In this document: positions 28,898 to 53,996 of the stretch, in pieces
How positions within the stretch are numbered: the first letter of the stretch is position 1
How the letters are laid out: the number at the start of each line of letters is the position of its first letter
Assembly: GCA_017893485.1 (NCBI GenBank)
Contig: CM030358.1
Location: 147,448,926-147,512,925, forward strand
DNA length: 64,000 nucleotides
DNA from: Hemerocallis citrina
Lineage: Eukaryota > Streptophyta > Magnoliopsida > Asparagales > Asphodelaceae
Reading direction: 5' to 3'
The notes under the pieces: model-generated
Databases searched by the model: none
What the model was told of the DNA's origin: nothing
The model's input: only the letters and a program-made list of their open reading frames with translations
Position numbers and translations under genes: made by a program

Positions 28898-29180
28898 TTA
28901 TTTGATGGGAAGTTAATAATGTACTTTAGCCCGAGAATTTTTCGCACCAGGGCATTATAAAAAGAAAAAGAAAGAAAAATAAATCCTAGTGTACCAGCTT
29001 TACCACTGTCGTTAGAAAAATAATAATAGTCATAACAATTCAATTACTAAATCAAGAATAATGAATATATAAAACACTTGTGCAACCAATACACTAGGGA
29101 ATTTTTTTCCAAAATGACCCTCTTTTTGAAAGTTTTTCCAGAACTAACCCGTTTTTTATAAAAATTTCATAAACGACCCA

Positions 29181-29325
29181 CTCGCTTTTTGAAAAAGCTG
29201 TTTGGTTAAAAATAACTCGCTTTTTCAGAAAGCGAGTGTTAAACTTTTAATTTTCGAAAGGTTAGACTCGCTTTTTGAAAAAGCGAGTTATTTTTAACTA
29301 AACCCGCTTTTTCAAAAAGAGCGTA
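29181..29325. repeat. Nested hairpin module in the left arm of foldback MULE 1
   Basis: Four hairpins built on CTCGCTTTTT and its inverse are arranged as H1, spacer, H2, loop, H3, inverse spacer, H4. The module is itself a palindrome inside the large palindrome. The right-arm copy lies at about 43066-43210. The same layout with different stem letters occurs in foldback MULE 2. Confidence 0.85.
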
Positions 29326-29682
29326 TGGTTATTTTGGTAAATATTTTCGAAAGTAGGTTAGCTTGGTAAATACTTTTAGAAAGTAAGTTAGTTTGGTAAA
29401 TAATTTCAGCAAGTGGATCAGTTTGATAATAAGTTCTTTCTATATCACATTGTCACTTCATCTTCTTTAGACTCCTATATATGAAATCGTTTCTTTAGAC
29501 TACTATATATGAAATCGTTTGTCAGGACTTTTTATATCACATTGTCACTTCATCTTCTTTGGTAATGATTTTATAAAGTTAGTAACTGTTTAGCAGTAGT
29601 CGAGAATATACATAACTTGACATTATTTCAGTATACACATAATTGATGTGTTTTAAGTTGTCAAGAATGAGCCCATAGATAC

Positions 29683-31080
29683 TGTTGGATCCTGTAGGCG
29701 AGACAACAAACACTAGAGGGGGGGTGAATAGTGTTAATAAAAAACTGCGGAAATTTTCTTCGGTACAGTCGACTTGTTTGTGAACCAGTCGACTGAAGTG
29801 ATCAAATAACAGTAAATACAATAACTCGGTGCAGTCGACTTATAGATAAGGCAGGCGACTGATGATGCAATGAAAGTACAAGTTATACGAGACTGATCAG
29901 TCGACTCATAGTGCAAGGAGTCGACTGTCCAGACAAGTTTTACAGAACTTATGAAAAAAAAAGTAAATGCAAGATCAAGACAACCAATCACAGAGTACAC
30001 AAGATATATCCTGGTTCGGTCCTCCCGACCTACATCCAGTCCCCAAGCAACCCACTTGAGATTTTCACTATTCTTGAAAAAGTTTACAAGAATACCCTAC
30101 GGCGTTAAGACAACAACCTTGTCTAACCCGTAGTCCTTTCTCTCAACCAGAGAAAGCAGACCCACTCTACTACCAAGAGTGAAACAAACCGACTCTACAA
30201 CCTAGAGTCAAAAACCACTCTCCAACTGAGAGCAAAATGAACAAGAAAAACTTTACAGTCAACCTATAGCATTGTTGGTGTATTGTGTTGTTGCACGTGG
30301 CTAAAAACAAGGTCGACTTCTATACCCAGTCCAGAACAGAATCGTTGTTATACTGGACTGAATGTAGAGAACCAAAAAGTTTGAACTTGAAAGCTTTTTC
30401 TCAAATTTTTCACTTAGAATTTTCTCAAAGAGTGCTCGGATCTCAAAAAGTTGTTGTAAGATCTTTTCAGTGAGATCTGAACTCTATTTATAGAGTTAGA
30501 TCTCCTGGACGTTGGGGGACAGTTATTCCAACTGTCAACCAACGGATCTTTAGCTTTTGATTTTGAAAAATCAATTTTTGAAAACAGAAAACGGTCAAAA
30601 GCACTCGAACAGTCGACTAGGTTGCCATATGAGTCGACTGGTCAGAGTTTGAATAAATTTAAACAGTTTTGTACTTGTCAGTCGACTGCCAGAGGTATCA
30701 GTCGACTGGTACTCAACAGTTAAATTATATCAAACTGTTTTGACTCTTTTTGTGATTTTTTGAAAAACACACATTATGAAATTGTGAGTGTATGTGTGTG
30801 TGACAAGGTTTTACAATCGAACTAAGACTCAACAAAATTAAAATACAATGTTTTACAAGACACAACAATTTGACACATTTGAGCTTGAAGTCTTGAGTCT
30901 TGAATCTTGATTTGAGTCTTGAGTCTTTGAGCGAAGCTTTGGCCATTGTCTCTTATTTGGAGCTTTTATGCTTGATCATTTGTTCAGCTGTATAGAGGTA
31001 AATCCTTTGTGTATAGCACCTGTAAGTTTAGCATAGATACATGTGCAGTGTGTTGTGATCATCAAAATCAAGAATCAACA
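29683..31080 (+). mobile_element. Solo LTR, 1.4 kb, copia type likely, GATAC duplication
   Basis: TGTTGGATCC and AATCAACA are the ends, and GATAC flanks both sides (29678-29682 and 31081-31085). The uninterrupted right arm of the foldback MULE, near 31364-31370, shows the pre-insertion sequence. The AGAGGGGGGGTGAATAGTG block near the left end is common in copia LTRs. There is no gene. It carries nine perfect AGTCGACT sites and one variant. Confidence 0.88.
29767..30707. repeat. Paired AGTCGACT palindromes in the solo LTR
   Basis: Sites start at 29767/29787, 29833/29853 (second is AGGCGACT), 29899/29919, 30611/30632 and 30680/30700. Within a pair the spacing is 20 or 21 bp. The first three pairs are exactly 66 bp apart. 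The sequence between sites is not conserved. Confidence 0.9.
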
Positions 31081-31478
31081 GATACTCTCAATCTCCGGTA
31101 TACAAATAATTGACTTTTGACCTATCAATCATATACGCTGAGTTCTTGCGTCAAATGTCTCACACTCATTTTCTGAAAAAGCGAGGGTGGTTAAAAGGGT
31201 CCATGATTTTTTTTTATATATTTCACATTGGTGGTTAAAAGGGTCCTTTTAACCACCCTCGCTTTTTCAGAAAGTGAGTGTGAGACATTTGGCGCAAGAA
31301 CTCAGCGCATATGATTGATAGGTCAAAAGCCAATTATTTGTATACCGGAGATTGAGAGTATCTATGGGCTCATTCTTGACAACTTAAAACACATCAATTA
31401 TGTGTATACTGAAATAATGTTAAGTTATGTATATTCTCGACTACTGCTAAACAGTTACTAACTTTATAAAATCATTAC

Positions 31479-32141
31479 TGATATGGTCAAAACAAGGGGT
31501 TCAATCGAGACCGTCCAAATGGGGCACGAATCCTACAGCTCAGGGACGAGACGGTAATTTCACATGCAAACGGGTCCGAAGCGGGTACTGGGTCTCCTTC
31601 TCACAGATCCAATAACCCGCAAACGGATCCACCACAGCTGGGCACGGGTTTCAACCCGCTGCCAACTCGATCCAGCAAGACACAATCAAGGTCCCTGATT
31701 AGATCTAAATCAACGGCCATGATTCACGTCAATCTTTACACTGGGATTTAGGGATTAAAATTCCTTATCTGATTACCAGAATATACCTTATCAGATTACT
31801 TTCCCAATCTGTTTACAAGGAGATTATTCTATATCAGACTACGCGGATTACATTCCAAAATTGTTCTCTAAGACGCCTATAAATACCCCCCACCCATCTC
31901 CATTAACAGGTAATCAATCTTTTTCTAGTTAAACGCTCTTTCATAATCATTTCTGGTTACTGACTTGAGCGTCGGAGGGTGCGTCGCCGGGAACAACCCC
32001 GGTGTCTCGCACTTTTTGCAGGTGCACGGCGGGAGCGACGATCAGAGTTCAACGGAACAGGTATACAGGTTCTCCTATTCAGTTTCCCCAAAGAACTCAC
32101 AAATTCATCTGTTTGCCCCCACACCGAATTTAGCGGCAACA
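31479..32141 (+). repeat. 5' LTR of the Tat-type element
   Basis: Starts TGATATGGTC and ends GCGGCAACA. TATAAATA lies at 31878-31885, with AGGTAATCAATC downstream where transcription probably starts. I found no difference from the 3' LTR. Confidence 0.95.
31878..31885 (+). promoter_or_regulatory. TATA box of the 5' LTR
   Basis: TATAAATA followed by a C run, in the same place in all four LTRs of the group. Likely drives the gag transcript. Confidence 0.75.
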
Positions 32142-32144
32142 GAT

Positions 32145-32160
32145 TGGCGCCGTCTGTGGG
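32145..32160 (+). promoter_or_regulatory. tRNA primer-binding site
   Basis: TGGCGCCGTCTGTGGG lies three bases after the LTR. The first ten bases match the complement of a tRNA-Asp 3' end, the usual Tat-lineage primer; the rest diverges. Confidence 0.85.
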
Positions 32161-32213
32161 AAACTAACGAATAGAGACCTCTCCTCTTCCCGGTGAACAG
32201 GTTTTCTCCAGCC

Positions 32214-35200
32214 ATGCCGCCTCGCAAAGTCAGATCTAGGGGCTCCAATCGAGCGCCCATCCCTGACCAGCAGGAAGTCCTTCCTGATCCCACTCAACAA
32301 CAAGGGCAGCTCCCTCCTACCGTGGAAGAGCCGCTCCAGCGAAACCCTCCACATCCTGATCCGAAGGGGCCTAACCCCCAGAAACAGCCTCTTCATCCAG
32401 AGAACATACCCAACCACACTGCCTCCAGTGCCTCCATGGCCTCCCATCATCCCCGAGCCTCTGGTCGCCACGATGCCCATCCCAGACGCCCGGAGGATAA
32501 GGACCTTCGTCACCATCTGGACGAAAAGCGGGCTCGGGGAGAAGCCTCCCACCAAGAACGATCCCCCCGACACCGGGGACACAGGGGATCCCCCGCCCGA
32601 AGAGGGAGAAAAGACTCCCCCGATCACTACCGAGGGAGGCACTCACCGGCAGGTCGGCAGCAGCATCGGAACAATGAGGCACCCATCACCCGTGCCGAGT
32701 TCCAGCAATTCCAAGCTATGGTACGACAGGCCCTCAATCTCCGTCAAAATCCCAATGAGCCAAGGGCCCCCTCCCCTCGTCCGGTCCGGAGCCCTCGCCA
32801 ACGTTCCCCTTCTCCTCGACCCGCTCCTACCAATTCCAGACGCACCCCAAGTCCTCGTCGTTCCCGAAGCTACCGTCGCCGCAGCCCTCGCTCCCCATCC
32901 TACGAAGACGAGTCCCGTGGCTCGGCAGATCACCGCCGGAGAGATAACACCATGAACCGCCGCCTGAACGAGGTGGAAAAACTCTTGGGACGGATAAACC
33001 GGGAAGAAGAACTCAGGGGGAGGACCCTCCGTCCTAGCCAACCCCCGTTCTCCCGGACCATAGTGGATACTCCTGTTCCCTTCGGTTTCAAACCTCCCCA
33101 GTTCGAGAACTACACGGGAGAGACCGATCCGGTTGACCACATCGAAGGCTTTAAGACTTTGATGCTCCTCCATCAAGCGTCCGACGCCCTCCTCTGCAAA
33201 ACATTCCCTGCAACTCTGAAGGGCCCAGCTCGAGAATGGTACTCTCGCCTTGCCCCGGCGTCAATATTCTCCTTTGAACAGTTCGAGACCCTGTTCATCA
33301 CCCACTTCGTCAGCAGCCGAAGGGCCGAGAAGACCAGCATTTCCCTGTTGCACCTCCGTCAGCAGAAGGGGGAGAGATTGAGGGACTACGTGAAGAGGTT
33401 CACAGCCGAGGCCAGAACTATCGCATCCCTCGACCAATCCGTTGCTACCGCGGCGTTCCAATCCAACATCCTAAATTCTAACCTCCGCTCCTCCCTCGCC
33501 AAAAAACCGCCACATGACTTTTCTGACCTCCTCCTCCGTACTGAAAAGTACATCCGAGCTGAAGAGGCCGAGGAACCGCCCAACTGGGAAGCAACCGCCT
33601 CCGGGTCTAAGAGGAAGGGAACGGAAGAAGAGGGACCCAAAAAGTTTCAGAAGGATAATGCTGGCCAGCGCCGGCCTCCCCCTAGATTTGAAAAATTTAC
33701 TCCCCTCACCACAAACATCTCCGCCATTTTCATGGAAGTCGAAAAAGAAGGGGTCCTGCCTCCAGCTCCAAAGATGAACACCCCAGCCAAAAGGAGGGAT
33801 AAAGACAAATGGTGCCGTTATCACCGGGACCATGGGCATGACACCAACGACTGCCGGGCTCTGAGAAACGAGATCGAAGCCCTCATCCAGAGGGGGCAGC
33901 TGGCGAAGTTTGTAAGAAAGGACGGGGCCGAACTTCCTCCCCAGCCTCGGGGGGCTAACAAACGTCCAGGACGGGAAGAGACGCCAGAATTCGAGGAAGA
34001 GCGAGTCCTCCACCTTATCCATGGGGGTCCAATGGGGGGCTCCTCGAACTCTTCTCGGAAAGCTTTTATTAGGGAAGTAAATTCTGTCCGGGCCACCCCT
34101 CCCCCCAAAGGGCTCGGAGTGCCCGTCACCTTCTCTGACGACGATCTCGAGGGCGTCCGCACCCCTCATTGCGACGCACTCGTCATCAACCTTCACATGG
34201 CCAATTTCAAAGTCGAAAGAATCTTAGTGGATAACGGGTCCTCCGTTAACATCCTATTCCTCGATGCTTTTAAGGGGCTGAAGCTCTCCCGAGACAGACT
34301 GAAGCCCGCCGGGTATACGCTCCATGGGTTCACGGGGGTGCCGGTGACGATCGAAGGGGTGATTACCCTCGATGTCACAGCAGGCAAAACTCCTACTACC
34401 CGCACGGAGTCGATGGATTTCATGGTTGTAGATGTCCCAGCGGCCTACAACGTCATTTTGGGTCGCCCCGGCCTAGCCGCCCTCGAGGCCGTCCCTTCGG
34501 CCTATCATCTCAAAATGAAATTCCCCACTCGGGCTGGAGTGGGAGAAGTTAGGGGCAATCAGGAACAGGCCCGCAAGTGTTACATGACCTCCACGCTCGG
34601 ACCCGTCCTCTCCTTAGAAACACTCGAGATTCCACAAGATGCTGCTCGGCCGACCCCCGAGCCAGTCGATGAGCTGGAGGAAATACTCTTCTCGGAGCAG
34701 GAGCCGACCCGTAAGTTCTATGTCAGCAAGGCACTCCCGTCCGCCCTACATTCAAATATTGTGAAATGCATCCGAGCCAACCGGGACCTCTTCGCATGGT
34801 CAGCAGCGGACATGCCCGGTATCTCCGAAGAACTCTTGGTCCATCGCCTCAGCGTCGATCCGGGGTCCAAACCGGTCCAGCAGAAGAGGCGCAAGTTCGC
34901 CCCCGAGCGCCAGCTCGCCATCAGCAGAAGAGGCGCAAGTTCGCCGGTATCTCCGAAGAACTCTTGGTCCATCGCCTCAGCGTTGATCCGGGGTCCAAAC
35001 CGGTCCAGCAGAAGAGGCTCCTCCGTTAACATCCTATTCCTCGATGCTTTCCAGCAGAAGACCCACTTGGCTCGATTTTGCTTCGCAAATCCGCTCCTAA
35101 GCGGACTAGAAGTAGCTCGCCATTCGAAACTGCTCCTGCATCTCTCAAACTTATCACACAATGGTTCGGAGTCCAGCACTCGGCTCGACTCTTCCTACTC

Positions 35201-35261
35201 GGCCCGTCTTCAGACGGGCCGGGGGCAGATCGCCGTTCGAAATTGCTCCTGCAGCCGTTGA
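32214..35261 (+). CDS. gag-pro: Gag-protease polyprotein with a scrambled C-terminus
   Basis: The first ATG in a good context is at 32214 (1,015 codons before the stop). Residues 1-290 are very basic and Pro/Ser/Arg-rich. The Retrotrans_gag core is about residues 320-410, including FETLFITHFVSSRRAEK and LRDYVKRFTAEAR. A zinc-knuckle-like WCRYHRDHGHDTNDC is at 533-547. The retropepsin site VDNGSSVNILFL starts near 672, and LGRPGL lies about 95 residues later. The start of RT (VDPGSKPVQQKRRKFAPE) is near 885, after which the frame enters duplicated pieces and 214-bp repeats. The open frame over 3 kb suggests gag and protease are intact. The last about 110 residues are an artefact of rearrangement. 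Confidence 0.88.
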   Translation: MPPRKVRSRGSNRAPIPDQQEVLPDPTQQQGQLPPTVEEPLQRNPPHPDPKGPNPQKQPLHPENIPNHTASSASMASHHPRASGRHDAHPRRPEDKDLRHHLDEKRARGEASHQERSPRHRGHRGSPARRGRKDSPDHYRGRHSPAGRQQHRNNEAPITRAEFQQFQAMVRQALNLRQNPNEPRAPSPRPVRSPRQRSPSPRPAPTNSRRTPSPRRSRSYRRRSPRSPSYEDESRGSADHRRRDNTMNRRLNEVEKLLGRINREEELRGRTLRPSQPPFSRTIVDTPVPFGFKPPQFENYTGETDPVDHIEGFKTLMLLHQASDALLCKTFPATLKGPAREWYSRLAPASIFSFEQFETLFITHFVSSRRAEKTSISLLHLRQQKGERLRDYVKRFTAEARTIASLDQSVATAAFQSNILNSNLRSSLAKKPPHDFSDLLLRTEKYIRAEEAEEPPNWEATASGSKRKGTEEEGPKKFQKDNAGQRRPPPRFEKFTPLTTNISAIFMEVEKEGVLPPAPKMNTPAKRRDKDKWCRYHRDHGHDTNDCRALRNEIEALIQRGQLAKFVRKDGAELPPQPRGANKRPGREETPEFEEERVLHLIHGGPMGGSSNSSRKAFIREVNSVRATPPPKGLGVPVTFSDDDLEGVRTPHCDALVINLHMANFKVERILVDNGSSVNILFLDAFKGLKLSRDRLKPAGYTLHGFTGVPVTIEGVITLDVTAGKTPTTRTESMDFMVVDVPAAYNVILGRPGLAALEAVPSAYHLKMKFPTRAGVGEVRGNQEQARKCYMTSTLGPVLSLETLEIPQDAARPTPEPVDELEEILFSEQEPTRKFYVSKALPSALHSNIVKCIRANRDLFAWSAADMPGISEELLVHRLSVDPGSKPVQQKRRKFAPERQLAISRRGASSPVSPKNSWSIASALIRGPNRSSRRGSSVNILFLDAFQQKTHLARFCFANPLLSGLEVARHSKLLLHLSNLSHNGSESSTRLDSSYSARLQTGRGQIAVRNCSCSR
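34818..35060 (+). other. Scrambled join of RT and protease fragments
   Basis: 34946-35018 repeats 34818-34890 with one base change. 34922-34945 repeats the end of that block (up to 34901). 35019-35050 is a copy of protease sequence 34239-34270, jumping back 780 bp. Joins fall at or near the word CAGCAGAAGAGGC. It marks where most of pol was lost. Confidence 0.88.
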
Positions 35262-36000
35262 ATGGATCGGAGTCCAACACTTGGCTCGATTTTGCTTCGC
35301 AAATCCGCTCCTAAGCGGACTAGAAGTAGCTCGCCATTCGAAACTGCTCCTGCATCTCTCAAACTTATCACACAATGGTTCGGAGTCCAGCACTCGGCTC
35401 GACTCTTCCTACTCGGCCCGTCCTCAGACGGGCCGGGGGCAGATCGCCGTTCGAAATTGCTCCTGCAGCCGTTGAATGGATCGGAGTCCAACACTTGGCT
35501 CGATTTTGCTTCGCAAATCCGCTCCTAAGCGGACTAGAGGTAGCTCGCCATTCGAAACTGCTCCTGCATCTCTCAAACTTATCACACAATGGTTCGGAGT
35601 CCAGCACTCGGCTCGACTCTTCCTACTCGGCCCGTCCTCAGACGGGCCGGGGGCAGATCGCCGTTCGAAATTGCTCCTGCAGCCGTTGAATGGATCGGAG
35701 TCCAACACTTGGCTCGATTTTGCTTCGCAAATCCGCTCCTAAGCGGACTAGAAGTAGCTCGCCATTCGAAACTGCTCCTGCATCTCTCAAACTTATCACA
35801 CAATGGTTCGGAGTCCAGCACTCGGCTCGACTCTTCCTACTCGGCCCGTCTTCAGACGGGCCGGGGGCAGATCGCCGTTCGAAATTGCTCCTACGGCCGT
35901 TGAATGGATCGGAGTCCAACACTTGGCTCGATTTTGCTTCGCAAATCCGCTCCTAAGCGGACTAGAAGTAGCTCGCCATTCGAAACTGCTCCTACATCCC
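35067..36000 (+). repeat. Tandem array, 214-bp unit, about 4.4 copies
   Basis: Units start at 35067, 35281, 35495, 35709 and 35923 (partial) with TTGGCTCGATTTTGC. Copies are nearly identical. Each has hairpins GGCCCGTC/GACGGGCC and CCGCT/AGCGG. Diverged related sequence continues to about 36080. Long open frames on both strands here are by-products of the 214-bp repeat and carry no domain. Confidence 0.95.
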
Positions 36001-36475
36001 TTAAACTAATCTAACGACCGGATCCTTCCTCCGGCTCGACTCTATCTCTCCGACTCGTCCTTAAACGGTCCGGAACCCGTCCCGACCGTAGACTGTGCCG
36101 AGCTGACGAGGTACCGACCCTCGTTTTGGGAAAAAATCACCCCGAGGTCAACTCGCCGTTAGATCCTCTCAAATTGTGTGCCAAAGCGTGATGAGTGGAT
36201 CCAGTAGTGCCACGTGCCCACAAAACGACAAGATAACGTTTTCTTGGTACTCGTGCCTGCCTCTGGATTCGCGCCACCATCCAACGGTTGTAGACACCCC
36301 ACGTCGACCGGCGTCAATAGCCGAGCGACAGGATCAGAATTGCGACAAAAGACTCGACGAACAGCCAATAGAAGACACTTCGGATAAATCGACCCCAATT
36401 TTATTAATGACTTGGACGAGTTTACAAAAAGATTACTACAGCGAGTTCAACAAAATATTACAAGGCATGACCCGC

Positions 36476-37165
36476 TCATTTCCTCCGAGGAAGGGGGACA
36501 CTCCGGTTCAACGACACTTTGGGTCGGCGCTTCTTAGCCTCCGAGCTCGTCTCCAGGCCGACGAACCGGGACGCCCCTTCGCCGCTGAGCCTCACAGTTG
36601 CCCCAACCGAAGCGCCACTTGAAGACACCGCCACACCACTTTGTGCATCGGCGGCTGACGCCCCGATGATGGGAGTCCGGGACGCCGCTTGGTAGAACGT
36701 GATACCTCGCTCGATCTCTTCGCGGGTACAGGAGGTGCTCCGGACGTTGGCCCTCACCGGCTGAGGCTTGAGCCGAGCGACCTCCTCCTCCAATTCGACG
36801 ATCCGGTCCTTCAGCGCCTCGTCCCTCACGACAATTTTGAACCGAGGAAGCTTCGCCGATCCAGGGTATTCGGCGCTGTCAGATATGACACGACGCAGAT
36901 GGGTCACCTCGATACTCTTGTCGACTGTCACCCTTTGCAAATGCTCGACCTTCTTCACGAGCTCATCTCGTTCGGCCAAAACAGAAGCCAATTCTTCTTC
37001 CTTAGCAAATAGCTCGGCTTCGGCTATCCGCAAGTGGTACACTTCGGCCAACAGATCCCCGTTCTTCATCTCCATATTGTACAGCATCCTCCTCGTCAGG
37101 TCGATCTCGCCCTCAAGGCGTTTCACGAGAGATAGATGGAACAGCTCTACTTGTCGCCGAGCCAT
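36476..37165 (-). CDS. Antisense coiled-coil protein of the Tat-type element
   Basis: The ATG at 37165 opens 229 codons. Residues 10-75 and 118-132 show heptad-like Leu/Glu/Lys patterns (VKKVEHLQRV, ELEEEVARLKPQ) and would form coiled coils. The C-terminus is Ser/Ala-rich and ends in a basic tail (KKRRPKVSLNRSV). Function unknown. It lies 160 bp downstream of the other antisense gene, on the same strand, and could be a further exon or a second gene; a possible acceptor (GTGGTAG) lies near 37178. No splice junction can be proven from sequence alone. Confidence 0.55.
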   Translation of the reverse strand: MARRQVELFHLSLVKRLEGEIDLTRRMLYNMEMKNGDLLAEVYHLRIAEAELFAKEEELASVLAERDELVKKVEHLQRVTVDKSIEVTHLRRVISDSAEYPGSAKLPRFKIVVRDEALKDRIVELEEEVARLKPQPVRANVRSTSCTREEIERGITFYQAASRTPIIGASAADAQSGVAVSSSGASVGATVRLSGEGASRFVGLETSSEAKKRRPKVSLNRSVPLPRRK

Positions 37166-37327
37166 CGTAGTGACGGGGGCCTACCCTACCACCGAACCAA
37201 ACACTTAGACAATTTCAAAGACAAAACGTTTTTTCATTTATCAAAAAGCGGTGGCCAGTCCGCAAAAGGCGTTACAAAGCTCGGAAGAAAAAGCAGAACA
37301 GAAACTACAAAAAGATTAACGAAAGAA

Positions 37328-39529
37328 TCAAGGGTCCACCTGCGTCTCCGCTCCCACCCCGGACGCATCGACGGGCGGTCCCTCGATCTCTCCCTTAGCC
37401 GGGTCATCCTCTCCCCCTCCGTCTTCGCCTTCGACCTCGTCCTCGGCATCCCCCTCCTCGTCGTCCACGGGCGACCCGGGCCACAGTCGATAATCGACTC
37501 GCTCGAAGCCGGGGACACGAGCCTGGACATGGTCCAGGGCCGTCTGGTAGGATCGCTCCATGTTCTCAGCCATATGTTTCTTCGCCTCTGCCTCAATCTC
37601 GGCTTCGACCTCCGCCCGGATCCTCGCGGCCTGCGCTTCCCTCTCCGCCTTCTCGTCGGCCAAGGACTTCAATGCCGCGGCAAGATCTTGGGCGGCCTTG
37701 GCAGCTTTGGCGGACTCCGCTTCGAGGCCCTCCTTCGCTTTCTTCAGGTCGGCGGTAAGGTCGGCCACCCGAACGTCCAGAGCCTCGGCCCGCCTCTGCT
37801 CGGCCTCGAGATCCTTGACCGCCCGGACCTTCGCCAGCCTGTCTTTCTCGCTGGCGGACTTCAGCTCCTTCTCCTGTGCGGCGAACGCCTCCATGAGATG
37901 GCCGAAGTGAACGGTGGCCTACGAAGACAACGATAAGTACGAAGTACGCACCGAGTAACAAACTTGAAGAAATTTGCGAACACTTACCGAAACAAGCCCC
38001 CGGGCGACTTCGTAAGTGTCGTCGCCGACCCTCCCCGCATTCAGCGCGGCCTTATCCTTCGGGGTCGCCAAGTGTTTGACGACCTGCATTGACATCTGCG
38101 AGTTGCCGAGGAAACCATCATGATTCCTCACCAGCCAGTTCGGCACAAACAACTGCTTGTGCTGCTCGGTCAGGATTTCCTCGGCATTCTGAGTCAATGG
38201 GGGAAGCTCGAGCGCCAGCGCCGCATTGACATCAAAGACACCCTCGTTCACGGACGGGGCGACAGGGGCCGAGGTCTCCTCCACCACCACTACCTCCGAA
38301 GGCACCTCGGCAGCCGGGGGAGGCGGAGCAACGTTAGTGGCGACCGCGGGCTGAACACCCGAAGACGCACCCTCGGCCGCCCTCTTCCTTTTTCTGGTCC
38401 CGGTCAGCTTGGACCTATCGGCCATCATAGCTTTAAAGTCAATCTTCATCGACTCTGCATCAACAAAAAAAAAGAGAGGGGGAGAAAACCGAATCAAAAC
38501 AGACGAATTGAAGACTTAGGAAAAAAAAAATGAATGAGATGTCAAGAGCGTACTCGGATCGATGGGGCTTAGTCCGGACCCGAACAACACCTCTTCGGTC
38601 AACTCCCTCCAACTCAGTACCGGAAGGGCCGTGATCCTCCTCGCTACCTCCTCCTCGGCCTTAGATAGTGCGGGGTCGCCCCGCGCAAATTTCGGCACTT
38701 CCACCTTCCACCGGGACGGAATGTGCCAAATCGCTTCGCCCCTTACGATAAAATACTTCTCCCTCCAACCCTTAAGAGAGTCGGGATTCTCTACAATCTT
38801 AACACCTCTCCTCGGCCCCAAATAGTACCGGTACTCCGAGCCGTGTTGCTTGTTTATCCGATAGAGGCCCCGGAAAACTGACAGATCCGGCGCTACCTCG
38901 GCTCGGTGACACTGAAGCAAGAATGCGTTCACATGACGCCAAGTGTTTGGACTGAACTGAGTAGGGGCGAGACAATACCAGCCGAGGATCTGAAGTATGA
39001 AAGGGTGCAGCGGAAAACGCAGTCCCGCGTTCAAGGAGTCGACGTCAAACATGCACATGTCCGACGAAGGCAACTTAGTGTTTGCTCGCACCCCGGGGCC
39101 AGCGACCATCAGCTTGTACTCCGACGGGATAGCGAAAGCCTTCCTGATCCGAAGAAGATCCTTCTCGGTCAACGACGAAATGAGCTCGTCAGCTTCGGAG
39201 GGATGGAACGGATTAGGCTCCTCGACGATCTTCGACTTTCCGTAGATCGCTTTCTCCAGAAGATCACCCTCGTACTGCCTGACTCCCGAATGCCCGGACA
39301 GGACGGAAGGATATTGTCCTATCTCGGGAGCTCGTTTCGGGTTCTCCACAATCACCCCCACTATGGGGGGCGGGGTCTCCCCTGTCCTCTTCTTCTTCCC
39401 GACCCTCGACTCGACAGCCAGCGGTTCGGCCATCTGCTTCCCCTTCCTGCGAGCTTCCGCCCTACTCCTCTCCCCGGCGCCATCACCGCCCGAGGACGAG
39501 GCACCACTACCCGAGCTTACCCTTGACAT
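37328..39529 (-). CDS. Antisense gene with two introns, gypsy-type 'putative plant transposon' domain
   Basis: Exon 1 is 39529-38554, intron 1 is 38553-38455 (99 bp; GTACGC...TGATGCAG), exon 2 is 38454-37988, intron 2 is 37987-37919 (69 bp; GTAAGT...TCGTAG) and exon 3 is 37918-37328. Phases agree at both joins and the result is a 677-residue frame without stops. Residues 1-50 are Ser/Gly- and Lys/Arg-rich. About 115-260 match the domain Pfam names transposase (putative) gypsy type (PGVRANTKLPSSDMCMF, GLRFPLHPFILQILGW, PDSLKGWREKY). Exon 2 has a Pro/Val-rich linker and exon 3 a long Ala/Glu/Lys coiled coil with an acidic tail. Extra antisense genes before the 3' LTR are known in Tat elements; their function is unknown and I do not infer a transposase activity. 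Promoter not identified. Confidence 0.72.
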
Positions 39530-39599
39530 CCTTTGAAAAAGCTAAGGCAAAGACAAACTAACCTTTGAAGTGACGTTCACGGTCGGAGAATGCTCGCCT

Positions 39600-40580
39600 G
39601 AAATCGCCTGGCCCACGCGACAGCTAACGACAACACCGTGGAGCAAGAGCGCCGCTAGCAGAGGACTTAGAGAACAAAAGTGAATTCGTAGAGTGAAAAG
39701 TGAGAAATGAGCTCATGGGTGAAGGATTGGTAACTTATAACCTCAACTGATAACGGGCCTCCTTGGGAATCCAAAAGGCCCACTAAGAATCCCAAACGCC
39801 CTACAAGAGAGAGGCGGCGGTATGAGAGGGGTGGCGGAACTCCCCAAAAAACACAAGTTGCGACTCGGCCACCGGTCTAATGAGCCGAGCTATCGAACGA
39901 AACGCTCAGTGACCGAGCCACCGAGTTCGCCCAAAAATACCCGATTCCGCGCCCGGCAAACAGCGCGAGGTATGCAGACCGAGGTGACGAGATACCGACC
40001 CTCGTTTTTGGCAAAAAATCCTCCCGAATCAAAATCACCGTCGGATCTCTCCAAAATTCGCGTCAGAATCTGATGAACGGTTCAGATTGCGCCACGCCCA
40101 CAAAACGACAAGATAGCGTTTTCCCGTGATCCGAACCCCATCCTCGTGATGCGTGGCAAAATGAACGGCCCAGATCCGTCCACGCAGACCTTCCAAACCG
40201 CTTGCCATCGGCTTGGTCGGCCGAGCTACCGAACAGCTCAGCCGAGCAACCGAGCCACTTAATACGGAACGGCGGAACCATCAAGAAGACAAGTAAACAA
40301 CTCGGCCTCCGGCCCACCAAGCCGAGCCACCGAGTTCGCCCAAAAATACCCAACTCCGCGCCCGGCAAACAGCGCGAGGTATGCGGACCGAGGTGACGAG
40401 ATACCGACCCACGTTTTTGGCAAAAAATCCTCCCGAATCAAAATCACCGTCGGATCTCTCCAAAATTCGCGTCAGAATCTGATGAACGGTTCAGATTGCG
40501 CCACGCCCACAAAACGACAAGATAGCGTTTTCTCGTGATCTGAACCCCATCCTCGTGATGCGTGCCCAGATAAACGGCCC
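39600..40580 (+). repeat. GC-rich 3' repeats, first block
   Basis: Two copies of a unit of about 410 bp (near 39960-40375 and 40376-40550) contain GAGGTGACGAGATACCGACC, a GTTTTTGGCAAAAAATCC block and CACAAAACGACAAGATAGCG. A related CAAAACGACAAGATAACG block lies at 36222. No gene. Confidence 0.7.
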
Positions 40581-40582
40581 AG

Positions 40583-41490
40583 ATCTTGCCACGTCCACAA
40601 AACGACAAGATAGCGTTTTATGGGGATCCACGCCAAAGATGGACGGCCTAGTTGGTGCCACGTACCTCGGATGCTCCGAACCGAGGCACCGACCCTTCCA
40701 ACCAGGTCGCCGACCCCCCAAGCCGCGGCACTACGCATCCGGGCCGTGCTGCTGGGTTACCGACCCATCCAACCGGGTCGCCGACCCCCCAAGCCGCGGC
40801 ACTACGCACCCGGGCCGTGGTGCTGGGGTACCGACCCTTCCAACCGGGTCGCCGACCCCCCTAGCCGCGGCGCTACGCATCCGGGCCGTGGTGCTGAGGT
40901 ACCGACCCTCGTTTTTGGGAAAAAATCCTTCCGACCCTCAGGAGCCGTTGGATCTCATAGGAAAGCGCGCTCGTCATGATGGACGACCCAGGTCTTGCCA
41001 CGTCCACAAAACGACAAGATAGCGTTTTATGGGGATCCACGCCAAAGATGGACGGCCTAGATGATGCCACGTACCTCGGATGCTCCGAACCGAGGCACCG
41101 ACCCTTCCAACCAGGTCGCCGACCCCCCAAGCCGCGGCACTACGCACCCGGGCCGTGATGCTGGGGTACCGACCCTTCCAACCGGGTCGCCGACCCCCCT
41201 AGCCGCGGCGCTACGCATCCGGGCCGTGGTGCTGGGGTATCGACCCTTCCAACCGAGTCGCCGACCCCCCTAGCCGCGGTGCTACGCATCCGGGCCGTGG
41301 TGCTGGGGTACCGACCCTTCCAACCGAGTCGCCGACCCCCCCTAGCCGCGGTGCTACGCATCCGGGCCGCGGTGCTGAGGTACCGACCCTCGTTTTTGGA
41401 AAAAATCCTTCCGACCCTCAGGAGCCGTTGGATCTCGTAGGAAAGCGCGCTCGTCATGATGGACGTCCCAGATCTTGCCACGTCCACAAA
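40583..41490 (+). repeat. Higher-order tandem repeat, two large units with 71-bp inner repeats
   Basis: The block GCCACGTCCACAAAACGAC recurs at about 40588, 40996 and 41476, giving units of about 408 and 480 bp. Within each, a 71-72-bp repeat starting CCGACCCTTCCAACC runs in tandem: 40689, 40760 and 40831 in unit one; 41097, 41168, 41240 and 41311 in unit two. Unit two has one more inner copy, which explains its extra length. Confidence 0.88.
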
Positions 41491-41754
41491 ACGACAAGAT
41501 AGCGTTCTATTGGGATCCCCGCTAAAGATGGACGGTCTAGATGGTGCCACGTACCTCGGATGATCCGAACCGAGGTACCGACCATTCGAACCAACTCGCC
41601 GACCCCTCGAACCGCGGCGCAACGCATCCGGGCCGGGGTGACGGAGTGCCGACCCTCGTTTTTGGGAAAAAATCCTTCCGAGGAGCAGGAGGCGTCTGAT
41701 CGTTCCGAAATTCGCGCTCCATCTTGATCGAGGGCCTAGATGATGCCACGCCAT

Positions 41755-42145
41755 AAATAGGTATTAAAAATTGGTTTTTATTTATTTAAATCGGTTTATT
41801 TATTTAAAAAATTGCGAAAAATCGCTAAAAATTCGGGAAAATTAGCTAAAAATTCCAGGAAATAATTAAAAATTCGGGGAATATTTCTAAGCCACCGAAC
41901 GAGCAATTATTACCTAGAATACGCGGTTAAAGCCCCCGAACAATTAGCCAACACATCGCAAAATTAAATAAATCATCCGGAAAAATAGATAAAAACTCGA
42001 CACAGCTTCGGAGCATCAAAGAAGGAGAAACTAGCCTACCCCCGTGCTCCAGGATTCAAAAATCACCCATTCGGACTGCGATACAGTCCCACCGACCACT
42101 GAGTTAGTCAAACTACTCCTCAAAGACTGACCACCCTCAGCCTTT
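41755..42145 (+). other. AT-rich 3' zone before the polypurine tract
   Basis: It contains many AAAAATTCGGG and TTTATTTAAA words, like 1330-1900 in the left relative. No gene seen. Confidence 0.6.
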
Positions 42146-42161
42146 AGGAGTGGGGGGCTCG
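42146..42161 (+). promoter_or_regulatory. Polypurine tract
   Basis: AGGAGTGGGGGGCTCG directly precedes the TG of the 3' LTR and is nearly the same as that at 1928-1943. Confidence 0.88.
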
Positions 42162-42824
42162 TGATATGGTCAAAACAAGGGGTTCAATCGAGACCGTCCA
42201 AATGGGGCACGAATCCTACAGCTCAGGGACGAGACGGTAATTTCACATGCAAACGGGTCCGAAGCGGGTACTGGGTCTCCTTCTCACAGATCCAATAACC
42301 CGCAAACGGATCCACCACAGCTGGGCACGGGTTTCAACCCGCTGCCAACTCGATCCAGCAAGACACAATCAAGGTCCCTGATTAGATCTAAATCAACGGC
42401 CATGATTCACGTCAATCTTTACACTGGGATTTAGGGATTAAAATTCCTTATCTGATTACCAGAATATACCTTATCAGATTACTTTCCCAATCTGTTTACA
42501 AGGAGATTATTCTATATCAGACTACGCGGATTACATTCCAAAATTGTTCTCTAAGACGCCTATAAATACCCCCCACCCATCTCCATTAACAGGTAATCAA
42601 TCTTTTTCTAGTTAAACGCTCTTTCATAATCATTTCTGGTTACTGACTTGAGCGTCGGAGGGTGCGTCGCCGGGAACAACCCCGGTGTCTCGCACTTTTT
42701 GCAGGTGCACGGCGGGAGCGACGATCAGAGTTCAACGGAACAGGTATACAGGTTCTCCTATTCAGTTTCCCCAAAGAACTCACAAATTCATCTGTTTGCC
42801 CCCACACCGAATTTAGCGGCAACA
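42162..42824 (+). repeat. 3' LTR of the Tat-type element
   Basis: 663 bp, apparently identical to the 5' LTR, followed by the ATTAC duplication at 42825-42829 and then the right arm of foldback MULE 1. Confidence 0.95.
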
Positions 42825-43364
42825 ATTACCAAAGAAGATAAAGTGATAATGTGATATAGAAAGTCCTGACAAACGATTTCATATATAGTAGTCTAAAGAA
42901 ACAATTTCATATATAGTAGTCTAAAGAAGATGAAGTGACAATGTGATATAGAAAGAACTTATTATCAAACTGTTCCACTTGCTGAAATTATTTACCAAAC
43001 TAACTCACTTTCTAAAAGTATTTACCAAGCTGACCCACTTTCGAAAATATTTACCAAAATAACCATGCGCGCTTTTTGAAAAAGCGGGTTTAGTTAAAAA
43101 TAACTCGCTTTTTCAAAAAGCGAGTCTAACCTTTCGAAAATTAAAAGTTTAACACTCGCTTTCTGAAAAAGCGAGTTATTTTTAACCAAACTCGCTTTTT
43201 CAAAAAGCAAGTAGGTCGTTTATGAAATTTTTATAAAAAACGGGTCAGTTCTAGTAAAACTTTCAAAAAGAGGGTCATTTTGGGAAAAAATTCTTCACTA
43301 GCAGTACTATAGTATAAGTAGTACCGGCCGCTACATATTCACATTCACATTCACATTATTAACA

Positions 43365-47340: not shown

Positions 47341-47936
47341 AATCTATACAATATCTTATGCTAAACCACTTTTGTCTAGGATTTTTCTCAGTTTTTATTT
47401 TTTAAAATAAAACAAGAATGATAAATGTAGGAGATAACTACTCACTCTTACTCCATCCAAATTGGAATTGGAATCTTCATTATTATATAGATATTATTAG
47501 ATGAATTTTTCAATTTTTTTTTTAATTTTAAAAAAAATTTATGTGTAGTATTGCACGGGTTATACGACATATTATATTTATATTATATAAGTGTGTACAA
47601 TATTGCACAAGGATACACTAATAAAAAAAATAATGCTGATCATTCGATTTCCTTAAGACGTCTGAAATTTTGTATACTCAAATTGAAGTTTAAAAACAAT
47701 AATGTGATACTCATATAAAAGCACATTTTCAATCATACTTTCTTGATAAGTTGAGTACAATTAACAATACTCATTTCTCTTCCCTTTTTTTTTGTATGCC
47801 ATTAAGTTGTAGCTGATTTATGGGGAGTCAAACCTATCACATGTACTATTTAATTTGTGAATTTTTTCCCAAACCGACCTATTTTTTGAAAGTTTTTCCC
47901 AAACCGATCTACTTTTTTTTTAATACCCAAACTGCC

Positions 47937-48082
47937 CCACTCGGTCTTTGAAAGACCGAGTTTAGTGAAAACTAACTCGGTTTTTCAAAGACCGAGTGTT
48001 AGTATTGAATTTTTTGAATTCTAACACTGGTCTTTGAAAAACCGAGTTATTTTTCACTAAACTCGGTCTTTCAAAGACCACA
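47937..48082. repeat. Nested hairpin module in foldback MULE 2
   Basis: Four hairpins based on CTCGGTCTTT with its inverse follow the same H1, spacer, H2, loop, H3, inverse spacer, H4 plan as at 29181-29325. The right-arm copy spans 50361-50455 and 53128-53175, broken by the LINE derivative. Confidence 0.88.
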
Positions 48083-51000
48083 CAGTCATTTTGAAAAATA
48101 CTTTTGAAAGTGGGCCAGTTTGGTAAATACTTTCAAAAAGTGGATTATTTTGGTAAAAACTTTCAGAGTTAACTATAATTATTATAGTGAATATTATTGA
48201 CCAAGGTGAGTTCTTGTCCTTCATTTAGGTGCATATTTCTTTCCACTAGTCACTAAGAAATAATTGCATCTTGTTCTTTGATTAACCGACTGAAATATTT
48301 GCTGCTGCAGATCCTATCTCTCAATTCTTATCTACTGGTGTGATGGGTGTTGTCCTAAATCTAGAAAGAAAAGCATTATTGGGTCTAAAATCATAACATG
48401 CACGTGTTTAAAATTTTCAAGATCGTCTGAGCTAATTTCCTTAGTAATACTCTATACTTTGTATGGTCTTTTTATTTTTTCATCTTTAGTTGTTATCTAT
48501 TTGCCTTTTTATTACCAGGTTAATAGCTGAAAAATAAGGATACAATGATGCAGGTTATTTATTTTTCTAGTTGTAATCTATACAATATATTATTCTAACT
48601 CACTTTTGGTTCAAGTATTTTTCTAATTTTTTCTTTTTAAAACAAACAAAAAAAAAGGGTAGCAAATATAGGAGGCAACTTCCCACTCCTCCATCCAGAT
48701 TTTGAAGTGCAATTATTTTTCTTAATCAAACCTTAAAAAACATGCAATATTGTATATATGTTATCGGGAGAATTTTTTTTCAAAAATAATTCTCATAATT
48801 GTTCACTTTTCAAAAATTATGTGCAATGTATTATTACATAGTGTTATATTTAAAAATTATGTGTAATACAGTGGTAATTATGAAATTTGAATCCTCTTGG
48901 TGAATAATTCACTAGAGACGTTCACTGGCCCATTTAACCATACATCTTGCATCAAAATGTGTGCCCTCTGTTATGATCAACAAGATGTGTGGTTAGATGG
49001 GCGACTCTAGTGAATTAGCATTTCACTGGATAGGATTCAAATCCGTAATTGTGGTACATTAGTGCCATTGTTTCACATGTTCTTCAACATAATTTTCAAT
49101 TTATATTATTTTGCTTGGTTAGTTAAAACTTAAAAGTGGCCATTTTGAATATCAGTATTGCTGCTTTATTTTCTTTATTATTAAGCCACTATTACCTACA
49201 CTTTTCTATATTTTTATTTTGCAAGTGTTATTTTCAGGGTCATAATATTGTGTTCTCTTGAATAGAAAATTTTGCCGTACTGACCCACTTTTAAAATTAT
49301 TCACCAAGAGTGTATAGTTAAAGAGGATGACTACACATACATAAGTTTTTATTCCAAACATACATTATAAATGCATTCGGCCCACTTCTCACTAAAAGAT
49401 AAGGTTTTAACATTGTCCTTTAGTGAGAAGTGTCCTCCATTACATTTATAATGTATGTTTGGGGTAAAAACTCATGTATGTCTAGCATTTTGCATGGTTA
49501 AATGGGCCAGTGAACGTCTTTAGTGAATTATTCACCAAGAGGATTCAAATTCCATAATTACCACTGTATTACACATAATTTTTAAATATAACACTATGCA
49601 ATAATACATTGCACATAATTTTTGAAAAGTGAACAATTATGAGGACTATTTTTGAAAAAAAAAATTCTCCCTATAACATATATACAATATTGCATGTTTT
49701 TTAAGGTTTGATTAAGAAATATAATTGCACTTCAAAATTTGGATGGAGAAGGAGTGGGAAGTTGCCTCCTATATTTGCTATCCTGTCTTTTTGTTTGTTT
49801 TAAAAAGAAAAAATTAGAAAAATACTTGAACCAAAAGTGAGTTAGAATAATATATTGTATAGATTACAACTAGAAAAATAAATAACCTGCATCATTGTAT
49901 CCTTATTTTTCAGCTATTAACATGGTAATAAAAAGGCAAATAGATAACAACAAAAGATGAAAAAATAAAAAGACCATACAAAGTATAGAGTTTTACTAAG
50001 AAAATTAGCTCAGACGATCTTGAAAATTTTAAACACGTGCATGTTATGATTTTAGACCCAATAATGCTTTTCTTTCTAGATTTAGGACAACACCCATCAC
50101 ACCAGTAGATAAGAATTGAGAGATAGGATCTGCAGCAGCAAATATTTCAGTCGGTTAATCAAAGAACAAGATGTAATTATTTATCAATGACTAGTGGAGA
50201 GAAATATGCACCTAAATGAAGGACAAGAACTCACCTTGGTTAATAATATTCACTATAATAATTATAGTTAATTCTGAAAAGTTTTACCAAAATAACCCAC
50301 TTTTTGAAAGTATTTACCAAACCGTCCCACTTTCGAAAGTATTTATCAAAATGACTGTGCGGTCTTTGAAAGACCGAGTTTAGTGAAAAATAACTCGGTT
50401 TTTCAAAGACCAAGTGTTAGAATTCGAAAAATTCAATACTAACACTCAGTCTTTGCAATTTACATTGTTGTGACGATTCAAAAAAGAGATAGAAAAGCGA
50501 TTTGGGAGCGATTTTGAATTCACTTCCTCTTCGACCTTTCTCCACCCAGATCTGCCGTCCACACCTCCCCATCGACCTCCTCCCCTTTCTTAAAGTTGTA
50601 GATCTCATCCTCCTCTACACACCCATCTCTCTTTTTTCCCCTATTCCGAGCTCCGACTTTTTTCACCCTCCCCAGGAGCGTCTTCTCTGTCGTTTGTCTC
50701 CGGAGCTCTTCTCCGTCTCCTGTTACCAGCCATCTCCAGTTCCTTTCCGTCGAGGTGGCGTCCGTTTAACTTCCTAAGTCGTCGCCTTTCTTCTTCGAGA
50801 CTCCGCTCCGGTCCTCCTCCTTCTCAAGCAACGCGAGAGACTGTGGTTTGGCTTTTATTCTGCGTGCGTTTCCCCGGGTGAGCGACGTATCCTTCCCCTT
50901 ATCACTGTAAGTATCCCCACTGCTGTCTCCTCCCCCTTATCCCTGTAAGTATTCCCGCTGCTGTTGTTTCTCTGGTTTGTGAGGCTTCGATTATAGGGTA

Positions 51001-53093: not shown

Positions 53094-53996
53094 TATCCGA
53101 TTCATCAAAAAAAACACTCAGTCTTTGAAAAACCGAGTTAGTTTTCACTAAACTCGGTCTTTAAAAGACCGAGTGGGTCGCTTTGGGAATTAAAAAAAAA
53201 GTAGGTCGGTTTGGAAAAAACTTTCAAAAAATAGGCCGGTTTGGAAAAAAAATCTTAATTTGTTGGCAGTCTATGCAGTCCCCATATTGGGAGAGAGATT
53301 TTTCAACATCTCAAAATAATTCAGTCAAGACTATAATCAAACCTTTGCCTCTCAGTTAAGCACGAGAAAATTTTCCAACTGCAATATGCAAATAATTTTG
53401 ATTAACCGTAATTTCTAGAGTTATTTTCATAAAGGCCATCCACAATTTTGACTTTTCCAAATAAGTCACTTACAAATATCTATTTTCATACACACCACCA
53501 ACAATATATGTTTCCTCCACTAAAGCACCTACGCGAGTTTTTTTAAGTTTAATTAAGGCTAAATTTGAAAAAACTCATTCAAGTATTGCTCATTTAAAAA
53601 AACCACTCATTTTTTTTATTATAAAAAACCGCGTTCACCTTCATTTTCAAAAAACTCACAGCGACGGTGTTAGTTTCCGTTAGGTTATTTGTCACGTACA
53701 GCACACGTGACCTTTTTTTGAACAATTTTGGCCCATGTCTAAACCCAAAAACCTCTTCACTCTTTCTCCTATTCTTCTGCTTTAACTAATCTTCAAAATT
53801 CCCAAAATAAAATAAATCATTATCACAATTTCTTCCCACAAAATCAACCCATTTAGATCTCAAAATCACTTTTTCCTCCACCTTCCACCGAAACACCCGC
53901 TAACATCCAACCCGATCTGCTAAATCATCACCCTCCGCTTGGAAACCCTAGATTTCATCCAAACAGTGGTAGCAAAATCTTCATTTAAAAGCTCCA

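Follow-up and report, generated by a model that had tools for sequence, protein, structure and literature searches.

Paired palindromic octamers in a solo LTR of Hemerocallis citrina resemble the repeated motifs of Sirevirus LTRs

We identified five closely spaced pairs of a palindromic octamer in a 1398-bp solo LTR lying within the 64-kb window of Hemerocallis citrina DNA that was analysed. The reading that we favour, with a probability of roughly 0.6, is that the LTR was left by a Sirevirus-type Ty1/copia element, is read on the minus strand and carries the repeated-motif (RM) array of such elements in a CAGTCGACTG version, with upstream pairs that would act as promoter-control sites. Since the array resembles the palindromic repeated motifs described in Sirevirus LTRs, we regard it as being of a kind already known, while its unusual motif sequence and a second cluster, located downstream of the presumed promoter, look like its distinguishing features.

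The solo LTR and its palindrome pairs

The original prediction placed the octamers in a solo LTR, and this is borne out by a GATAC target-site duplication and by an empty site in the other arm of the foldback element that hosts the insertion; because that arm has the target site uninterrupted, the LTR ends are supported as well. The minus strand is the most likely orientation of the LTR, given the position of TATAAATA at LTR 589 and of a C-rich box 28 bp from the 3' end. The features are as follows, in window coordinates, with LTR positions counted along the minus strand.

29683..31080, minus strand (assigned from the TATA-like box and the C-rich box): solo LTR, TGTTG...CAACA, 1398 bp
31081..31085, unstranded: right copy of the target-site duplication GATAC, 5 bp
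30680..30707, minus strand: palindrome pair 5, at LTR 374-401, preceding the TATA box
30611..30639, minus strand: palindrome pair 4, at LTR 442-470, preceding the TATA box
30485..30492, minus strand: putative TATA box TATAAATA, LTR position 589 of 1398, function presumed
30311..30318, minus strand: single site with one mismatch, outside the pairs and absent from the original prediction, at LTR 763-770; it reads GGTCGACT on the plus strand
29899..29926, minus strand: palindrome pair 3, LTR positions 1155-1182, downstream of the TATA box
29833..29860, minus strand: palindrome pair 2, including the near-perfect site AGGCGACT at 29853
29767..29794, minus strand: palindrome pair 1, LTR positions 1287-1314
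29711..29733, minus strand: C-rich box CACTATTCACCCCCCCTCTAGTG, whose end lies 28 bp short of the 3' end of the LTR
29678..29682, unstranded: left copy of the target-site duplication GATAC, 5 bp
31350..31366, minus strand: target site left uninterrupted (CATAGATACTCTCAATC), in the other arm of the foldback element

On the minus strand, pairs 5 and 4 (LTR 374-470) precede the putative TATA box, which lies 118 bp beyond the last upstream site copy, and 6 of the 10 site copies follow it, in pairs 3, 2 and 1 (LTR 1155-1314), which should be in the transcribed leader. Searching the minus-strand LTR for a handful of short words of plant promoters, with no background control, returned TATAAA at 589, CAAT at 133, 297, 796 and 807, TTGACC at 483, TTGACT at 819 and 870, and CACGTG at 782; AATAAA was not found on this strand of the LTR. 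The start of the minus-strand LTR, TGTTGATTCTTGATTTTGATGATCACA, and the phrase around GACTGGATGTAGG resemble those of many plant copia LTRs, and we treat this likeness as a lead only.

The count of nine perfect sites and one near-perfect site forming five pairs, as originally predicted, was reproduced. All nine exact matches to AGTCGACT in the 64-kb window fall within 29767-30707, as against 0.50 expected and a maximum of 2 in 100 shuffles, and the tenth site, AGGCGACT, belongs to pair 2. At one mismatch or fewer, the motif is not unusual across the whole window, with 23 matches against 15.9 expected and 23 or more in 9 of 100 shuffles. Coding repeats are unsupported: none of the 25 listed stop-to-stop open reading frames of at least 150 aa in the window overlaps the LTR at 29683-31080.

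The arrangement of the sites is more regular than random placement provides. Spacing from start to start within the five pairs is 20, 20, 20, 21 and 20 bp, in agreement with the 20 or 21 bp first reported, while 200,000 random placements of 10 sites in 1398 bp never yielded more than three such pairs, as against 5 of 5 observed. The 66-bp repeat of the three left pairs was likewise recovered from the pair starts (pairs 1-3); the right pairs (4 and 5) are 69/68 bp apart, a step that is similar to 66 bp and not identical with it. The observed number of 66-bp distances, six, was reached in 2 of 200,000 random trials, under a null that ignores the pairing and therefore overstates the significance.

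Comparison with the repeated motifs of Sireviruses

Sirevirus LTRs are described as carrying a repeated palindromic motif with dyad symmetry in at least eight copies per element (Bousios 2010, PMC2829016). The array in H. citrina shares with this description the presence of many copies of one palindrome in an LTR amid divergent flanks, and its copy number, nine perfect and one near-perfect in one LTR, is above that published minimum. According to the same paper, 117 of 127 LTR copies of the RM occur in the upper half of the LTR, in a cluster that begins 200-400 bp from the LTR start and upstream of the TATA box. The upstream cluster observed here (374-470, with the TATA box at 589) fits this placement, whereas the six copies at 1155-1314 do not.

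The motif itself departs further from the published class. A CGG-CCG signature is given for 12 of 13 published RM elements, Tnd-1 being the one without it (PMC2829016), but it occurs in 0 of the 10 sites here, which have CAG-CTG instead, in CAGTCGACTG and its variants. The Vitis RM, CGGTCGACCG, on the other hand, comes very close to the present motif CAGTCGACTG, with a difference of two bases, which speaks for the assignment. Strict pairing at 20-21 bp sets the array apart from the RM as the published text describes it. RM clusters are also said there to form predicted CpG islands, and the two clusters here, taken with 45 bp on each side, point in the same direction, with CpG observed/expected ratios of 0.97 and 1.12 against 0.42 in the rest of the LTR; this enrichment comes largely from the sites (4 of 6 and 6 of 10 CpGs, with a ratio of 0.49 for the LTR outside sites), and G+C in the clusters is 0.36-0.38. 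The C-rich box 28 bp from the 3' end can be likened, by description, to the C-rich integrase signal of Sireviruses, for which the mean distance to the 3' end of the LTR is given as 21 bp (PMC2829016). No primer-binding site (PBS), polypurine tract or coding region survives in the solo LTR, from which the Sirevirus PBS junction CA/ATTGG with TATCAGAGC, the multiple polypurine tracts, the AT/TG attachment and gag-pol are accordingly absent.

On this comparison we consider the assignment to the Sirevirus-type Ty1/copia family type probable, as drawn from the LTR alone in one copy. It seems unlikely that the LTR belongs instead to another Ty1/copia lineage in which a similar array evolved: such an origin would suit an array that lacks the CGG-CCG signature and includes a downstream cluster, but the Sirevirus description is matched by the C-rich box and by where the TATA box and the upstream cluster lie, and the RM is reported as absent from classic retrotransposons (PMC2829016). 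With the LTR read as Sirevirus-type, the RM class may not be confined to motifs with the CGG-CCG signature and may extend downstream of the promoter.

Searches beyond the Sirevirus description returned little that bears on the array. Among the literature matches listed for AGTCGACT, the titles and abstract openings carried no link to plant LTRs, and no paper was found that joins CAGTCGACTG, or TTCACCCCCC, with a retrotransposon. In the parts of the text that were available, 'sire' and 'palindrom' each occur 0 times in PMC11656987, and PMC3414828 holds nothing bearing on the array. Five pattern scans of viral and prokaryote collections gave 60 loci (1 and 19 viral, 0 in two further viral scans, and 40 prokaryote), which we take to be chance matches to short patterns because 0 of the 60 match the LTR (blastn, E 0.01); a pattern derived from the GACTGGATGTAGG phrase found none in the viral collection.

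Candidate roles of the pairs

We place promoter control, through putative binding and consequent regulation, at about even odds as the main role of the pairs. The upstream pairs would be putative double-stranded binding sites for a host factor, either dimeric or acting as paired dimers, which may control the LTR promoter from there. The function of the published RM was left open, with regulation suggested and reporter tests called for (PMC2829016). A looser parallel is provided by Tnt1, in which LTR boxes bind host factors (BII boxes, PMC3316501) and box I is called symmetrical (PMC2829016); the likeness to the present sites is one of description, in terms of LTR boxes and the symmetry of box I.

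The original prediction had gone further, proposing an array of binding sites for a dimeric protein acting on one face of the helix. A regulatory array remains the best reading and matches the published Sirevirus class, but the geometry holds only in part. Within pairs, 20-21 bp corresponds to 1.9-2.0 turns at 10.5 bp per turn, consistent with a single face. Between pairs, on the same assumption, the 66-bp step amounts to 6.29 turns, or a rotation of 103 degrees, and the 68-69 bp steps of the right pairs are 171-206 degrees off, so that a whole array on one helix face is rejected.

The symmetry of the pairs also fits hairpins of RNA or of a single strand, a reading absent from the original prediction. 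In each pair, 9-bp inverted arms, which hold a single mismatch in pair 2, enclose a loop of 12, 12, 12, 13 or 12 nt (pairs in order) in which no sequence conservation is evident, a design that would give a potential hairpin in the transcript. The outer flanks extend the stem, a C preceding and a G following each of the five pairs (10 of 10), while inner flanks extend the palindrome in 4 of 10 cases (Fisher P 0.011, for a test picked after looking); complementarity one base further out drops to 0 of 5. Folded singly, four of the five pairs are predicted at -12.1 to -16.3 kcal/mol and pair 2 at -8.1, and for neither cluster, as minus-strand RNA, did any of 200 dinucleotide shuffles fold as well (z -4.61 and -4.45). 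These strong folds arise largely from the palindromes themselves, and the z-scores are not independent of the original observation because any array of identical palindromes folds well.

One proposal built on these hairpins is that the three downstream pairs act as stem-loops of the 5' leader that aid dimerisation or packaging of genomic RNA, as has been proposed for the palindromes PAL1-PAL3 at the 5' end of Ty1 RNA (PMC5454406). The parallel lies in palindromes near the 5' end of a genomic RNA, a position that is itself proposed here, with dimerisation as a hypothesis. Between 84 and 243 nt separate the downstream pairs from the 3' end of the LTR, which places them just upstream of the would-be primer-binding site; this location is favourable to the proposal, as are the stem-extending flanks and the predicted folds. 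Two of the pairs, however, lie upstream of the TATA box and would fall outside a 5' leader, and folding behaves unevenly: in the right cluster every pair is predicted to fold on itself, but in the best fold of the three-pair left cluster the sites of pairs 1 and 3 join each other and only pair 2 self-folds. The LTR minus strand also has no AATAAA. We regard leader stem-loops as an improbable main role. As part of the favoured reading, transcript hairpins could also feed small-RNA silencing; LTR palindromes of maize Sireviruses are reported as small-RNA hot spots (Bousios et al. 2016, via PMC10760457 and PMC5311732), and share with the present array palindrome clusters in the LTR with strong predicted folds, though the maize consensus is a different one, CACCGGACNNNGTCCGGTG.

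Somewhat less likely again is that the pairs are functionless by-products, formed when slippage, template switching or gene conversion in the course of reverse transcription multiplied a short inverted repeat. The near-constant steps of 66 and 68-69 bp could be traces of old duplications, and 37 bp of the pair 3 region align at 84% with the pair 4 region in inverse orientation (E 5e-4, sites included). Apart from the self-match, this is the only match of the LTR in the 64-kb window. Against this, identity over the 46 positions outside the sites in the 66-bp units is 33, 26 and 39% for the three comparisons, in none of them significantly above shuffles (P 0.29, 0.63 and 0.07), while site positions in the same comparisons are 95, 90 and 85% identical. 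The sequence between the sites is thus not conserved, as had been claimed. A simple 66-bp tandem duplication with equal conservation throughout, which the original prediction had named as its own refutation, is unsupported by these values of 26-39% outside and 85-95% inside the sites. With sites near-intact and unit identity at background level, recent duplication of whole units does not explain the array. In a gapped comparison of the non-overlapping flanks of the five pairs in both orientations, 1 of 20 tests fell below 0.05, which is the chance level; that single row was pair 3 with pair 4 on the minus strand (P 0.014), compared with P 0.979 for pair 4 with pair 5 on the minus strand. The flank tests imply that the sites were either kept amid changing surroundings or copied as very short units.

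A more speculative proposal, to which we give only a slim chance, is that the pair and not the octamer is the unit, a 9-bp inverted repeat with a free 12-13-nt loop, so that one motif would double as a DNA-binding array in transcription and as stem-loops in the RNA that serve its dimerisation or packaging or the production of small RNAs. If true, one retrotransposon would carry this dual-use pair repeatedly, both in its promoter half and in its 5' leader. Near-intact octamers, a fixed pair geometry and unconserved flanks together offer a clear test between DNA binding and RNA structure: the former predicts that the octamer matters and that spacing is tied to the helical turn, whereas the latter predicts covariation of the arms and a loose loop length.

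The foldback host and neighbouring elements

The solo LTR is one of two insertions hosted by the arms of a long foldback element at 29099-43293, the other being an 11.3-kb LTR element in the opposite arm. The foldback arms (29099-29682 with 31081-31198, against 31245-31478 with 42825-43293) are 89-99% complementary by piece, and the foldback end region contains several ACTCGCTTTTTGAAAAAGCGAG-like inverted repeat copies. Rfam, run at the gathering threshold, matched no known structured RNA in the whole window.

The second insertion, an LTR retrotransposon at 31479-42824, is recent, as its 663-bp terminal repeats (31479-32141 and 42162-42824) are identical and ATTAC is present on both sides. It contains a gag-like long open reading frame at 32175-35261, the end of which is overlapped by a tandem array at 35064-36011 (214-bp unit, 4.4 copies, 98% matches), as well as 71-bp tandem repeats in a 480-bp duplicated block at 40688-41656. 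Beyond the foldback element, its end region is partly matched at 47859-48166, 50274-50447 and 53113-53254, with 74-77% identity in the best orientation.
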